A stretch of DNA of 12,438 nt from Deltaproteobacteria bacterium (lineage in GTDB: Bacteria > Desulfobacterota > GWC2-55-46 > DRQE01): the NCBI GenBank assembly GCA_011371515.1, contig DRQE01000070.1:1-12438 (forward strand), written 5' to 3'. The first letter of the stretch is position 1. The number at the start of each line of letters is the position of its first letter. The notes under the pieces were generated by a model. That model ran no database searches and was not told the origin of the DNA. It saw only the letters and a list, made by a program, of their open reading frames with translations. Made by a program: the position numbers and the translations under genes. Shown one piece after another: positions 2,686-10,951 of the stretch.

Positions 2686-3371
2686 TCCGCCTCCATAGGT
2701 GATTGGTCTGTGTTGTTATGGTGACAGTTATTGTTGCAGCCTTCAAACTCGTAGTTAAGGCAACACATAAGTCTGCCGCACAGGCCTGACATCTTTAGGG
2801 GATTAAGAGGCATGTTCTGTTCCTTGGCTATCTTTATTGTGACAGGGGCGAACTCTGTCAGGAAGGATGAGCAGCACAGCTCCCTGCCACAGGGTCCTAT
2901 GCCGCCTATCATCTTTGCCTCGTCTCTCACACCTATCTGGCGCATCTCTATGCGGGTGTGGAAGGTTTGAGCAAGGTCTTTTACGAGCTCACGAAAGTCC
3001 ACCCTGCCATCTGCGGTAAAGTAGAATATGGCCTTGCTTGAGTCGAAAAGGCACTCCACATCCACAAGTTTCATGGGAAGCCCGTGTTTTTCTATCTTCT
3101 CCTTGCATATACGGAATGCCTCTTTTTCCCACTCGCTGTTGAACTGTGCCCGTTCTATGTCTACTTGGTCTGCCTTCCTTACCACCCGTTTCAGCGGGTG
3201 CTGGAGCTCTGCCTCCTCCTTTTCGCAGGGCTCTACAGCCACCGTGCCCATGGCTATGCCCTTTTCAACCTCCACTATCACGCGGTCTCCCACGCGGAGG
3301 TCGAGCTCACCTGCCAGAAACCAGTATATCTTACATGCCTTCTTGAATCTTATGCCACAAACCCTTGCCAT
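2682..3371 (-). CDS. ricT: PSP1 domain protein, RicT/YaaT-like
   Basis: The 229-residue protein has the PSP1 C-terminal domain, as in B. subtilis RicT (YaaT). RicT is part of the RicA-RicF-RicT complex, which binds [4Fe-4S] clusters and promotes RNase Y-dependent mRNA maturation there. The cysteine pattern is clear: C161, C166 and C167 (CGRELCC), then C198, C203 and C204 (CGRLMCC). Unusually, a short tail adds C212, C216 and two His (GCNNNCHHNN). No RicA or RicF partner is visible in this window, so the role in this organism is inferred only from homology. The start ATG at 3371 has AAGGAG about six bases upstream. The first 22 bases overlap the end of holB, and the last four overlap metG, so it is translated within the tmk-holB-ricT-metG operon. 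Outside Firmicutes such proteins are often annotated only as PSP1 or regulatory iron-sulfur-containing complex subunit. Confidence 0.9.
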   Translation of the reverse strand: MARVCGIRFKKACKIYWFLAGELDLRVGDRVIVEVEKGIAMGTVAVEPCEKEEAELQHPLKRVVRKADQVDIERAQFNSEWEKEAFRICKEKIEKHGLPMKLVDVECLFDSSKAIFYFTADGRVDFRELVKDLAQTFHTRIEMRQIGVRDEAKMIGGIGPCGRELCCSSFLTEFAPVTIKIAKEQNMPLNPLKMSGLCGRLMCCLNYEFEGCNNNCHHNNTDQSPMEAE

Positions 3372-4339
3372 CTTCTCTCCTTAAGGCTTACAAGGAGTGC
3401 CTCCATTGCAAGCCTTTTGTTTAGTGTGTTTGGTGGTAATATGCTCTCTCTTGTTTTTTCCACAAGGCTGTATGCCGAAAGCAACTCCTCTACTGAGTAG
3501 GTGCACCTGCCCACAGCATCCAGCATGTCTGTGTTTATAATTCTCTCTTCCGAAGGGGCTACCCTGTAGATGAGGGCATCCCTTAAAAGGGTCTTGAAGC
3601 TCTCGAGTAGTTCCTCAAGGTGTTCCTCTTTCGATAGCCTTTCTGCCATGTCCAGAAGTTCTGTGTCTGTAACATCGTCCATAGAAAGTACCGCTGTATA
3701 TTGCTGCCGTTTTTCTATTATACCCTCCGACGCCATCATAAGGGCTCTTTTTGCACTTCCACAGGAGAGCCTGCAGGCTATCTCTATTGTGGAGGGTTCT
3801 GTGTAGCCCTCTCTGTGAAGTATCTCCTTTATGGCATCTTCCTTGAGGGGGCTGAAGTTTATCCTCTGGCACCTTGAGAGTATCGTTGGAAGAAGGCTAT
3901 CGGGCCTCGATGAGATGAGTATCATTACAGTGTCAGGGGGTGGCTCTTCAAGGGTCTTGAGCAGTATGTTGGAGGTTGCCCTCACCATAAGATGGGCACC
4001 TTCTATTATGACGACCCTTCTGCCCCTGTCTACGCGGTAGTTAATAAGCCTTTTAAGCTCTCTTATAAGGTCTACCTTTAGTGTGCCTCCCTCTGGCTCT
4101 ACAAGAAGGAGGTTCGGGTGTGTTCCAGAGGCTATCAGCGTGCAAGACGGACACCTGCCACAGGCATCCCCTGTGTATTCTTCACAGTTGAGTGCTGCTG
4201 CAAAGGCCCTTGCCACGAGCCTCTTTCCAATACCCTCCAGACCAGAGAACAGATATGTGCTTGCACATCTGTTGTTTTCTATGCCCTTTTTTAAAAGGTT
4301 TATCTCCCTTTTATGTCCAAGTATGTCTGAAAAGCGCAA
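3350..4339 (-). CDS. holB: DNA polymerase III delta' subunit (clamp loader)
   Basis: This 329-residue AAA+ protein is the delta' subunit of the clamp loader, which opens and loads the beta sliding clamp. The fold and motifs resemble DnaX, encoded in the right part of this window. A Walker A-like GLEGIGKR at 33-40 keeps Lys39 but has Arg where Ser/Thr is normal, and the Walker B position reads VVIIEGAH (109-116) rather than DE. Weak or absent ATP binding is known for delta'. A zinc module is seen at C52, C60, C63 and C66, the SRC arginine-finger motif at 155-157, and LLKTLEEPP at 126-134. The start is TTG at 4339, supported by AAGGTG about 8 bases upstream. An ATG at 4344 is in the wrong frame, and an in-frame stop lies just upstream. 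The gene begins one base after the tmk stop and overlaps ricT by 22 bases. Confidence 0.93.
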   Translation of the reverse strand: MRFSDILGHKREINLLKKGIENNRCASTYLFSGLEGIGKRLVARAFAAALNCEEYTGDACGRCPSCTLIASGTHPNLLLVEPEGGTLKVDLIRELKRLINYRVDRGRRVVIIEGAHLMVRATSNILLKTLEEPPPDTVMILISSRPDSLLPTILSRCQRINFSPLKEDAIKEILHREGYTEPSTIEIACRLSCGSAKRALMMASEGIIEKRQQYTAVLSMDDVTDTELLDMAERLSKEEHLEELLESFKTLLRDALIYRVAPSEERIINTDMLDAVGRCTYSVEELLSAYSLVEKTRESILPPNTLNKRLAMEALLVSLKERRWQGFVA

Positions 4340-8926: not shown

Positions 8927-9020
8927 GGAGAGATGCCCGAGTGGACGAAGGGGGCTGACTCGAAATCAGCTGTTCCGGCTCAAACCGGAACCGAGGGTTC
9001 GAATCCCTCTCTCTCCGCCA
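8927..9020 (+). tRNA. tRNA-Ser (anticodon CGA)
   Basis: The acceptor stem GGAGAGA (8927-8933) pairs with TCTCTCC (9010-9016), followed by discriminator G and an encoded CCA. The anticodon stem-loop spans 8954-8970 with anticodon CGA at 8961-8963, reading UCG. The long variable arm typical of class II serine tRNAs is a strong hairpin (GTTCCGG with CCGGAAC). The T arm reads GAGGG-TTCGAAT-CCCTC. It decodes Ser and is cytoplasmic. Confidence 0.97.
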
Positions 9021-9051
9021 CAGGAGAAGGGCTTTCGTTATCGTCAAGGAC

Positions 9052-9143
9052 GGAGAGATGCCCGAGTGGTCGAAGGGGCACGACTGGAAATCGTGTGCAC
9101 ACTTCATCGTGTGCCGAGGGTTCGAATCCCTCTCTCTCCGCCA
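9052..9143 (+). tRNA. tRNA-Ser (anticodon GGA)
   Basis: This gene has the same acceptor stem, D-arm start, T arm and CCA end as the tRNA-Ser gene 31 bases upstream. The anticodon stem-loop spans 9079-9095 with anticodon GGA at 9086-9088, reading UCU/UCC. The variable arm differs (GCACAC, TTCATC loop, GTGTGC). Five T follow shortly after the CCA (9146-9150), but there is no separate terminator hairpin, so readthrough into the SRP RNA is possible. Confidence 0.97.
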
Positions 9144-9159
9144 CCTTTTTATGGATAGC

Positions 9160-9267
9160 GCTGATAGCCGGGTCCTGCGCAATGGAGCGGTGTGAACCCC
9201 GTCAGGTCCGGAAGGAAGCAGCGGTAAGCACCCAACTCCATGTGCCGCAGTCAACCTGGCTATCAGC
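9160..9267 (+). ncRNA. ffs: signal recognition particle RNA, small bacterial (4.5S) type
   Basis: The conserved apical hairpin GTCAGGTCCGGAAGGAAGC lies at 9201-9219, with its GGAA tetraloop at 9210-9213. The paired 3' segment AGCAGCGGTAAGC follows. The whole RNA folds back as one long helix, closed by a perfect 10-bp pairing of GCTGATAGCC (9160-9169) with GGCTATCAGC (9258-9267). The RNA binds Ffh and FtsY to target nascent membrane proteins. At about 108 nucleotides and with a single hairpin it is the small type without an Alu domain. The exact ends are inferred from the helix. It lies 52 bases upstream of dnaX, a placement also seen in B. subtilis (scr-dnaX). Confidence 0.95.
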
Positions 9268-9319: not shown

Positions 9320-10951
9320 ATGTCCTATCAGGTTATAGCAAGAAAGTGGAGGCCCACGAGCTTCAGCGAGGTGGTGGGCCAGACCCATGTGGTAAAGACA
9401 CTACAGAATGCAATCGAGTCCGGTAGAATTGCACATGCCTACCTCTTTTCGGGTCCCCGTGGTGTGGGCAAGACCACCATGGCAAGAATCCTTGCAAAGG
9501 CACTAAACTGTGAGAAGGGTCCTGCCCCTGAACCATGTAACGAGTGCAGCATCTGTAAGGAGATAGGCTCGGGCTATTCCACAGATGTGCTCGAGATAGA
9601 CGGTGCCTCGAACACCCATGTGGACAACATAAGAGAGCTCAGAGAAAGTGTAAAGTACAGCCCGAGCAGGGGGAGGTTCAGGATATACATAATAGACGAG
9701 GTCCACATGCTAAGCTCCCACGCATTCAACGCCCTTCTTAAGACCCTTGAGGAGCCTCCACCCCATGTGATATTCGTATTTGCAACCACCGAACCACACA
9801 AGATTCCTGCCACAATACATTCAAGATGCCAGAGGTTTGAGTTCAGACGCATACCCACAAGGGTTGTGGCAGAAAAGCTCAAAGAGATTGCAGATGCCGA
9901 GGGTATCGCCATAGACGACGAGGCGGTCTACCTTATAGCAAGAGAGTCCGAAGGTAGCCTCAGAGACGCCCAGAGTATGCTCGACCAGTTGATAGCCTTC
10001 TCGGGCGAGAGGATCGGCAAAGAGGATGTGCGCGATGTCTTCGGGCTTATGGATAGAAGCCTTCTGGCAACCCTTCTTGAGTGTATCATTGACAGGGATG
10101 GGGCAGGGTGCCTTAATGTGGTTGAAAAGATAAATGATTTCGGGTATGATTTAAAGAAGCTCCTCGGCGAGCTTATAGAGTATGTAAGAGACCTCATAGT
10201 AATAAAGGTATGCGATGATAGAAAGATAGTAGAGCTTCCCGAGAACGAGTTCAGCCATCTTAAGGGGCTCTCGGAACGGATAGAGATGAGAAGGGCAGAC
10301 CTTCTCTTTTCTGTCCTCTCAAGGGGATACGAAGAGCTCACGAGGTCTTCCACCCCGAGGTTCTCTCTTGAGATGACCCTTCTCAGGGCATGTAATCTGG
10401 AGGACTTGAAAGATATAGCAGAGCTTCTGAGGGCTGTAAGGGAGGCTGCATATCCCCTTAAAGAAGGGGCTGTAAACAGAGGGCGATATGATCCGCTGAA
10501 AGAGGCTTCCAGTAGAGCCGAAACAGAGCCAGAAGAGAGCAAGAAGGCTACCGTAGAGAAAAAAAAAGAAGGTGAGTGTGAAGAGGGGGCGGCTTCACAC
10601 CAGATGACAGAGGGGCAAGAAGGGTTCAAAGAGTTCGTTGCCCCAAGGGACGAAAGGCTTTACGATGCCCTCGTGGATGCAGTGGTGAGTTTCGATGGAA
10701 GGAAACTCTCCATAGTTGCAGATCCAGAGGGCTATGTCATGCTGGAGGTCATAAAGAAGAAAAGGCTCGAGGAGCTTGTAAGAGAGTATTTTAAGAGGAA
10801 TATAGCGATAGAGGTTAAAAAAAATAACGACACAAAGACCGAGAGAGAAAGAGCCTCCGTGGCGGTACCTGCCGCAGAGGATATAAAGATAAAAGCTATG
10901 AAGATACTTGGTGCCAAAATAATAGAGGAGAGAAGTATAGACGATGCATAA
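9320..10951 (+). CDS. dnaX: DNA polymerase III subunits tau/gamma
   Basis: DnaX is the ATPase of the clamp loader. The full-length tau form also binds the polymerase core and, in E. coli, the helicase. The 543-residue product begins with the AAA+ domain: YQVIARKWRP, Walker A GPRGVGKT at 45-52, zinc Cys C64, C73, C76 and C79, Walker B IIDEVH at 124-129, LLKTLEEPP at 139-147, and SRC at 168-170. The collar domain III follows to about residue 370. A charged linker of low complexity around 385-425 leads to a C-terminal tau-specific domain. Codons 414-416 are three Lys made of nine A in a row, followed by a stem-loop. A -1 slip there would end the protein after residue 418 as a gamma form. The start ATG has AAGGA 7 bases upstream. 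The gene lies downstream of the SRP RNA and overlaps ybaB by 8 bases. Length and motifs fit the family well. Confidence 0.96.
   Translation: MSYQVIARKWRPTSFSEVVGQTHVVKTLQNAIESGRIAHAYLFSGPRGVGKTTMARILAKALNCEKGPAPEPCNECSICKEIGSGYSTDVLEIDGASNTHVDNIRELRESVKYSPSRGRFRIYIIDEVHMLSSHAFNALLKTLEEPPPHVIFVFATTEPHKIPATIHSRCQRFEFRRIPTRVVAEKLKEIADAEGIAIDDEAVYLIARESEGSLRDAQSMLDQLIAFSGERIGKEDVRDVFGLMDRSLLATLLECIIDRDGAGCLNVVEKINDFGYDLKKLLGELIEYVRDLIVIKVCDDRKIVELPENEFSHLKGLSERIEMRRADLLFSVLSRGYEELTRSSTPRFSLEMTLLRACNLEDLKDIAELLRAVREAAYPLKEGAVNRGRYDPLKEASSRAETEPEESKKATVEKKKEGECEEGAASHQMTEGQEGFKEFVAPRDERLYDALVDAVVSFDGRKLSIVADPEGYVMLEVIKKKRLEELVREYFKRNIAIEVKKNNDTKTERERASVAVPAAEDIKIKAMKILGAKIIEERSIDDA
10559..10600 (+). 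promoter_or_regulatory. putative programmed frameshift or transcript-slippage site in dnaX
   Basis: Nine A (10559-10567) are read in frame as AAA AAA AAA. Eight bases later a perfect 8-bp stem begins: GTGTGAAG (10576-10583) pairs with CTTCACAC (10593-10600) around a 9-base G-rich loop. In the -1 frame the next codons are AGA, AGG and the stop TGA (10573-10575), giving a 418-residue gamma-like product. An AGAAGG (10542-10547), 11 bases before the A run, could act as an internal Shine-Dalgarno stimulator, though weakly. The layout matches the known E. coli dnaX frameshift element (slippery A run, nearby hairpin, immediate TGA). A run of nine A also resembles the transcript-slippage site of Thermus dnaX. 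Confidence 0.75.

Follow-up and report, generated by a model that had tools for sequence, protein, structure and literature searches.

Recurrent adenine runs with prompt -1 stops point to a probable moving site for gamma-like clamp-loader subunits in the dnaX genes of a bacterial phylum

Across a bacterial phylum, the part of dnaX downstream of domain III holds an excess of long A-runs that are followed by a stop in the -1 frame within five codons. The run of nine A (A9) in the dnaX gene of the window, by which we mean the whole 12,438-nucleotide stretch of DNA analysed here, is, judged from its sequence, one example of such a site, a kind that has good statistical support and that changes its place within the gene. 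We propose that such A-runs with prompt -1 stops are a site that moves and has evolved repeatedly and that would give gamma-like subunits without the presumed polymerase-binding tail, with slippage as the likelier agent, and we assign this reading a probability of about 0.58.

Pfam domains DNA_pol3_delta2, DNAX_ATPase_lid and DNA_pol3_gamma3 were found in the dnaX product, and the best structural matches of its predicted model (52 sequences, mean pLDDT 81.7) are E. coli clamp-loader gamma chains (e.g. 1jr3 and 8vam), at approximately 41-43% identity. Beyond the linker, the model places a folded domain at about residues 433-501, a low-confidence stretch at 504-519, a helix at 518-530 and a low-confidence tail. 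In this model of the window protein, A9 lies in the first low-confidence stretch and a second run of eight A (A8) at the edge of the second, the two stretches flanking the C-terminal folded domain. The features are compiled in Table 1.

Table 1. Features of the window dnaX gene and its two candidate shift sites (window coordinates)
Feature	Position	Strand	Remarks
dnaX, tau-like clamp-loader ATPase subunit	9320-10951	+	543 aa, 61.2 kDa; one uninterrupted ORF
Linker joining domain III to the C-terminal folded domain, predicted disordered	10454-10609	+	residues 379-430, pLDDT < 50
A9 run, codons 414-416 (AAA AAA AAA = Lys414-416)	10559-10567	+	within the disordered linker
Spacer GAAGGTGA	10568-10575	+	8 nt between A9 and stem
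-1 frame TGA, two codons past A9	10573-10575	+	predicted product 418 aa
Perfect 8-bp stem with 9-nt loop, probably incidental	10576-10600	+	arms GTGTGAAG (10576-10583) and CTTCACAC (10593-10600), 8/8 Watson-Crick; loop AGGGGGCGG (10584-10592)
A8 run, codons 500-502 (AAA AAA AAT)	10817-10824	+	where the last strand of the C-terminal folded domain ends
-1 frame TAA directly after A8	10825-10827	+	predicted product 502 aa ending KKK, without the C-terminal helix
Last predicted helix of note, residues 518-530	10871-10909 (codons)	+	helix H518-530 in the model; missing from both predicted shortened products

The C-terminal tail with its helix is presumed to bind the polymerase, by analogy with E. 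coli tau, in which the polymerase-binding residues lie near the end, from 611 to at least 636, according to the relevant part of PMC11470591. Because these residues are so close to the C-terminus, a late truncation would be expected to abolish polymerase binding as well. A sequence search of the last 113 residues of DnaX against the PDB returned nothing convincing (best E 0.97), so the presumed role of the tail is taken from the E. coli literature. The same 12-kb contig carries a dnaX-related clamp-loader gene on the minus strand (window 3350-4339), which we take to be holB-like (delta prime). Directly upstream of dnaX (window 8927-9264) lie two tRNA-Ser genes and a small SRP RNA, and two tRNA-Ser genes likewise lie just upstream of dnaX in G001, a genome of the same genus.

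The original prediction had described A9, an 8-nt spacer, an 8-bp stem with a 9-nt loop and a -1 TGA that would leave 418 of 543 residues, and each of these elements is present as described. The short product expected from a -1 shift at A9 ends in KKKRR, as had been predicted, and its computed mass is 47.2 kDa instead of the approximately 46 kDa given earlier. The next stop in the +1 frame lies 12 codons past A9, that in the -1 frame two codons past it. The site shares with Thermus dnaX about nine A on the sense strand of a dnaX that is a single ORF, here of 543 aa, and with E. coli dnaX a stem-loop a few nucleotides downstream; the heptamer, by comparison, is A_AAA_AAA (AAA AAA AAA GAA) and not the E. 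coli-type A_AAA_AAG. No element resembling a Shine-Dalgarno (SD) sequence stands out upstream of A9, where the best anti-SD pairing is -4.5 kcal/mol (z -0.8 versus permutations) and is equalled at about one quarter of all places in dnaX.

We estimated chance levels for the window gene by permuting synonymous codons within it (4000 runs). A9 arises at its exact place in 4.8% of the permutations, a run of at least nine A arises anywhere in the C-terminal part in 23%, and a perfect stem 8 bp or longer at a suitable distance in 1.5%. The original prediction had overlooked A8 and its immediate -1 TAA; one extra A or a -1 shift there would bring a stop straight after residue 502 and yield a product of 56.7 kDa. 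Two runs of at least eight A, each with a -1 stop at most three codons away, occur in 0.9% of the permutations. Taken together, these chance levels for A9, A8 and the stem are suggestive, not compelling. In the dnaX gene of G001 (L005), an in-frame A_AAA_AAG followed by GGA TGA in the -1 frame lies about 45 residues before the C-terminus, near the position that A8 has in the window.

In the 1.30-Mb assembly, the A9 pattern is not confined to dnaX: there are 13 matches in 10 runs on both strands, four of the matches falling inside one A12 run. Apart from the run in dnaX, at least one further A9 (L114, G000:C4:9074-9082), at a contig edge, is in frame within a gene, where it lies in a linker reading EKKKPP; from its sequence, we take this gene to be cheA-like. 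The remaining eight runs were checked for overlap with open frames only.

To place A9 among other dnaX genes, we counted genes with a run of at least eight or at least nine A after domain III and a -1 stop within five codons, and compared these counts with a null obtained by permuting the synonymous codons of each gene, which keeps the protein and the codon usage but not every mutational bias. The phylum is taken to be Desulfobacterota-like from the names that similar proteins carry (Thermodesulfobacteriota, Deltaproteobacteria). Three sets were used. The class set derives from 59 genomes, for which 54 dnaX stretches were used (G011, G032, G047, G049 and G052 are omitted; G006, G015 and G046 lack the 5′ end); G005, in which the contig ends, was dropped, leaving 53 genes with the window included. 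The named diverse set consists of the best 80 of 592 loci, of which 78 were used, L035 and L101 having no stop within the stretch. One of the six search peptides for this set was EKKKEGEC and may have favoured lysine runs at the protein level, although the null conditions on the protein. The held-out set comprises 102 of 178 further dnaX matches from the phylum, taken by score, from which L242 was dropped to give 101 genes.

The excess was found in every set. In the class set, 8 of 53 genes have a run of at least eight A with an early -1 stop versus 1.62 expected, and 6 versus 0.54 have one of at least nine A; with the window removed, the counts are 7 versus 1.40 and 5 versus 0.42. The named set gave 10 of 78 versus 3.23 and 6 versus 1.32, respectively, and the held-out set 20 of 101 versus 6.27 and 13 versus 2.70. 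In 1000 permutations, the held-out null never exceeded 14 (at least eight A) and 9 (at least nine A), so that the observed values were never reached. Early +1 stops showed no excess in the held-out set (4 versus 3.90 for at least eight A, 3 versus 1.67 for at least nine). When runs were counted irrespective of stops in the class set, there was no clear excess for at least eight A (9 versus 5.78, p 0.083), and there was one for at least nine A (8 versus 2.84, p 0.003). Over the 154 phylum dnaX genes, runs of at least eight A number 40 versus 23.5; of these, 30 have an early -1 stop versus 8.0 expected, and 7 have an early +1 stop versus 5.7; 126 of the 154 genes have no run of at least eight A with an early -1 stop. 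The excess persists after genus weighting (5.33 versus 1.20, 33 genera) and after clustering by protein identity, both at 60% (13.0 versus 3.3 of 60 clusters) and at 70% (18.7 versus 5.8 of 107).

Control sequences show no such excess. The N-terminal parts of the same dnaX genes show no excess of runs of at least eight A (0 of 53, 2 of 78 and 1 of 101 versus 0.44, 2.80 and 1.79 expected), and neither do ORFs picked mechanically beside dnaX (0 versus 0.04, n=62; 2 versus 6.15, n=291); in the larger of these adjoining sets, runs of at least nine A are depleted (1 of 291 versus 7.62). The infB control covered 30 of 55 matches, and none of these 30 genes has a run of at least eight A versus 3.13 expected under the null; the first 250 residues encoded by infB have about twice the lysine content. 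The control genes thus show avoidance of A-runs, in line with a section of PMC1088944 that describes many genomes as avoiding runs of nine A, and dnaX shows the opposite.

In all three sets, a site lies in the linker, over 110 residues away from the C-terminus, or at most 60 residues from it, and both regions are enriched in every set. Linker sites number 4, 8 and 6 in the three sets versus 0.84, 2.20 and 2.22 expected, and late sites 5, 13 and 4 versus 0.39, 3.47 and 1.05, the 13 being those of the held-out set. No site lies 61-110 residues from the end in any set; because the null expects hardly any there (0.38, 0.61 and 0.14), this gap proves nothing by itself. The late sites are not one homologous position, since four A9 sites of family f5 lie 25-30 residues from the end and 12 of the 13 held-out sites lie at 41-47, with one at 55, and site positions differ even between close relatives. 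At about codons 537-541 of the L252 dnaX, 41 residues from the C-terminus, the sequence reads GAA AAA AAA AAG AGT GAC; we take its A_AAA_AAG followed by AGTGA to resemble the E. coli dnaX site. The dnaX ORF of L250 (G143), of only 470 codons, is the shortest among the 101 held-out genes.

The same mobility is seen when the closest relatives of the window gene are inspected. G001 dnaX, at 80% identity, is without the whole segment with KKK and stem, its protein being 21 residues shorter, and P0002, a protein of 76% identity, has no KKK in the linker; the idea that A9 and hairpin form a conserved cassette is thereby contradicted, judged by the criterion of the original prediction itself, under which relatives without lysine run and stem would refute it. 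P0001, which represents a cluster of nine members and in which one residue difference from the window was noticed, keeps KKK at the protein level. As judged by these sequences, the A9 cassette is narrow in distribution. The original prediction that the organism makes both tau and gamma therefore stands in part: a gamma-like product is plausible given the recurrence of A-runs with -1 stops in the phylum, and the exact cassette is not conserved.

The hairpin, which had been proposed as a working part of the site, fares less well. A scan of the whole dnaX gene found a stem of this length only at this place, and dinucleotide shuffling of 10559-10615 gave z -2.3, the native fold being matched by 5 of 200 shuffles. 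Over the 60 nt downstream of A9, however, the folding energy is ordinary: among 1000 permuted versions, 73% were at least as stable, and the permutation test for downstream structure gave z -0.05 at this site. Averaged over 39 A-run sites (sites less than 45 nt from the gene end being excluded from the hairpin test), there is no excess of hairpins or of SD-like elements (mean z 0.07 and 0.12, respectively), which rules out both as general parts of dnaX A-run sites. Strong hairpins occur at single sites, such as L010 (z -3.0) and L102 (z -2.6). The A9 hairpin is probably incidental.

Under the reading we favour, A-runs in dnaX would shift a fraction of transcripts, or of translating ribosomes, into the -1 frame, in which a stop follows within a few codons. 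Unshifted reading would give tau; a shift at A9 would give a 418-residue gamma-like protein with the ATPase, lid and collar domains only, and a shift at A8 a 502-residue form that would keep the C-terminal folded domain and lose the last helix and the tail. The position of the site would be free to move across the phylum, presumably because a gamma-like subunit results wherever past domain III the protein is cut short, provided that the tail is lost. The agent would more likely be RNA-polymerase slippage that adds a single A, the mechanism of Thermus dnaX; -1 ribosomal frameshifting would be an alternative or a helper. The sequences, the excess over the synonymous null, the controls and the two regions of the sites are observed; from them we infer that the frame is shifted in this gene, by which agent and how often, and the function of the products. 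It is possible, at somewhat less than even odds, that dnaX is under phylum-wide selection to have an A-run followed at once by a -1 stop, be it in the linker or before the tail, with fast turnover of sites, and that some species with both, this one among them, would make tau, a tail-less tau and gamma.

On the pattern of runs, we would place slippage ahead of ribosomal frameshifting at about two to one. The excess of -1 stops is concentrated in runs of at least eight A in every reading phase (30 versus 8.0 summed over the 154 phylum genes) and is present for every codon ending of the run, whereas early -1 stops follow short competent A_AAA_AAG sites about as often as expected (4 versus 3.74). 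Because the excess concerns long runs with all endings, and because hairpins and SD-like elements show no mean excess, slippage, or ribosome sliding, is favoured over a stimulated E. coli-type cassette; ribosomes can slide on A-runs, as described in part of PMC4363877. In an E. coli-like event at A9 itself, tandem tRNA-Lys would slip on A_AAA_AAA (10561-10567), the hairpin 8 nt further on would assist, and translation would end at the TGA. The full geometry of heptamer, spacer of 8, 8-bp stem unique in dnaX and prompt TGA is in place for it, and the long-run excess in the held-out set is specific for -1. G001 has the A_AAA_AAG with GGA TGA near its C-terminus described above, and there is a mild excess of A7 f2, the competent phase (6 versus 2.3), and of short runs ending in A_AAA_AAA (6 versus 2.19). 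Regarding lysine tRNAs, none was found among the 14 tRNA matches of the organism's own genome, and G001 served as a proxy: all of its 39 tRNA matches were typed, and the sole tRNA-Lys among them is UUU, as in E. coli, in a list that is incomplete because Asn and Ile tRNAs are missing from it. Possession of two lysine tRNAs was noted in PMC5009743, in a passage on Thermus, as a possible reason for using slippage. Against frameshifting of this kind, the same paper reports in part that shifting in E. coli is far less likely on A_AAA_AAA than on A_AAA_AAG, downstream structure is ordinary both at A9 and over the 39 sites, and an SD excess is absent. The original prediction had entertained an E. 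coli-like mechanism, and we now regard it as unlikely, as it is the runs of at least eight A and not the short A_AAA_AAG sites that are enriched. Purely transcriptional slippage, for its part, might be expected to favour stops in either shifted frame, the arrangement reported for Thermus, and next to long runs in the phylum +1 stops show no enrichment; in the named set (78 genes), one class with +1 stops is enriched (A8+ f1, 4 versus 1.3).

It could also be that dnaX is not recoded at all, and that lysine-rich linkers with some AAA codons hold A-runs next to which an early -1 stop lies by luck, tau being the only product. The absence of the A9 site from G001 and P0002, the 4.8% chance of A9 at its place and the in-frame A9 of the cheA-like gene in the same assembly would all fit this explanation. 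So would the shorter runs: in the C-terminal part of the 154 phylum genes, A6 f0 (starting at a codon boundary) occurs 58 times versus 33.3, and 21 versus 9.9 times with an early +1 stop. Because shorter runs, some of them with +1 stops, are in excess, AAA codons must cluster in the C-terminal part of dnaX for other reasons too. Chance alone, however, does not explain why long runs followed by -1 stops are so frequent across the phylum, the held-out genes included, nor why the control genes show no such excess or even a depletion of A-runs, and the two sites in the one window gene (0.9%) would be a coincidence. We therefore consider the absence of recoding quite unlikely.

Recoding of dnaX as such is already known from E. 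coli, Thermus and two-ORF genes. The site described here is most like that of Thermus thermophilus, in which, according to parts of PMC1088944 and PMC5009743, a single ORF encodes tau and the shorter gamma comes from transcripts that have slipped at nine A on the sense strand and so run into a stop close by. It differs in that stops are close in both non-zero frames in Thermus and are here two (-1) and 12 (+1) codons away, in the presence of the second site, A8, in the window gene and in that slippage here is putative. With E. coli dnaX it shares an A-rich site after domain III, a downstream stem-loop, an early -1 TGA and a product, here a predicted one, with domains I-III. It differs by nine A in place of A_AAA_AAG, by a window without a strong upstream SD-like element, by an 8-bp stem of ordinary stability and by its being missing from the two closest relatives found. 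The two-ORF dnaX genes of a GeneTack cluster (Chlorobium and others), as portrayed in a section of PMC3711429, have a poly-A stretch and a choice between gamma and tau via a change to the -1 frame. In those genes tau needs the shift, whereas the window tau is read unshifted from 543 uninterrupted codons. A 404-aa dnaX ORF in L105, a Chlorobiaceae MAG, ends soon after A10 and looks like the two-ORF type. Caulobacter also uses a shorter DnaX form, but its gamma is made by proteolysis without a recoding signal, as a passage in PMC5009743 has it. Our search, which was limited to open-licence papers, found no paper on such dnaX sites in this phylum.

The pattern of A-runs in dnaX touches on the question of how important gamma is beyond a few model bacteria. 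According to a passage in a 2012 review, most other bacteria have no dnaX frameshift signatures and may not make gamma (PMC3290774), and a 2005 genome survey held, in one of its sections, that it is difficult to assess truncating slippage from sequence comparison (PMC1088944). A test against a synonymous null is a way to judge truncating slippage and is applicable to other genes. A late site, such as A8, would separate two losses that are joint in E. coli gamma, as the tail would be removed and the folded C-terminal domain kept. If our reading is true, part of a large phylum would make a shortened DnaX, and the signal for it, being fixed neither in position nor in structure, would escape scans for conservation.
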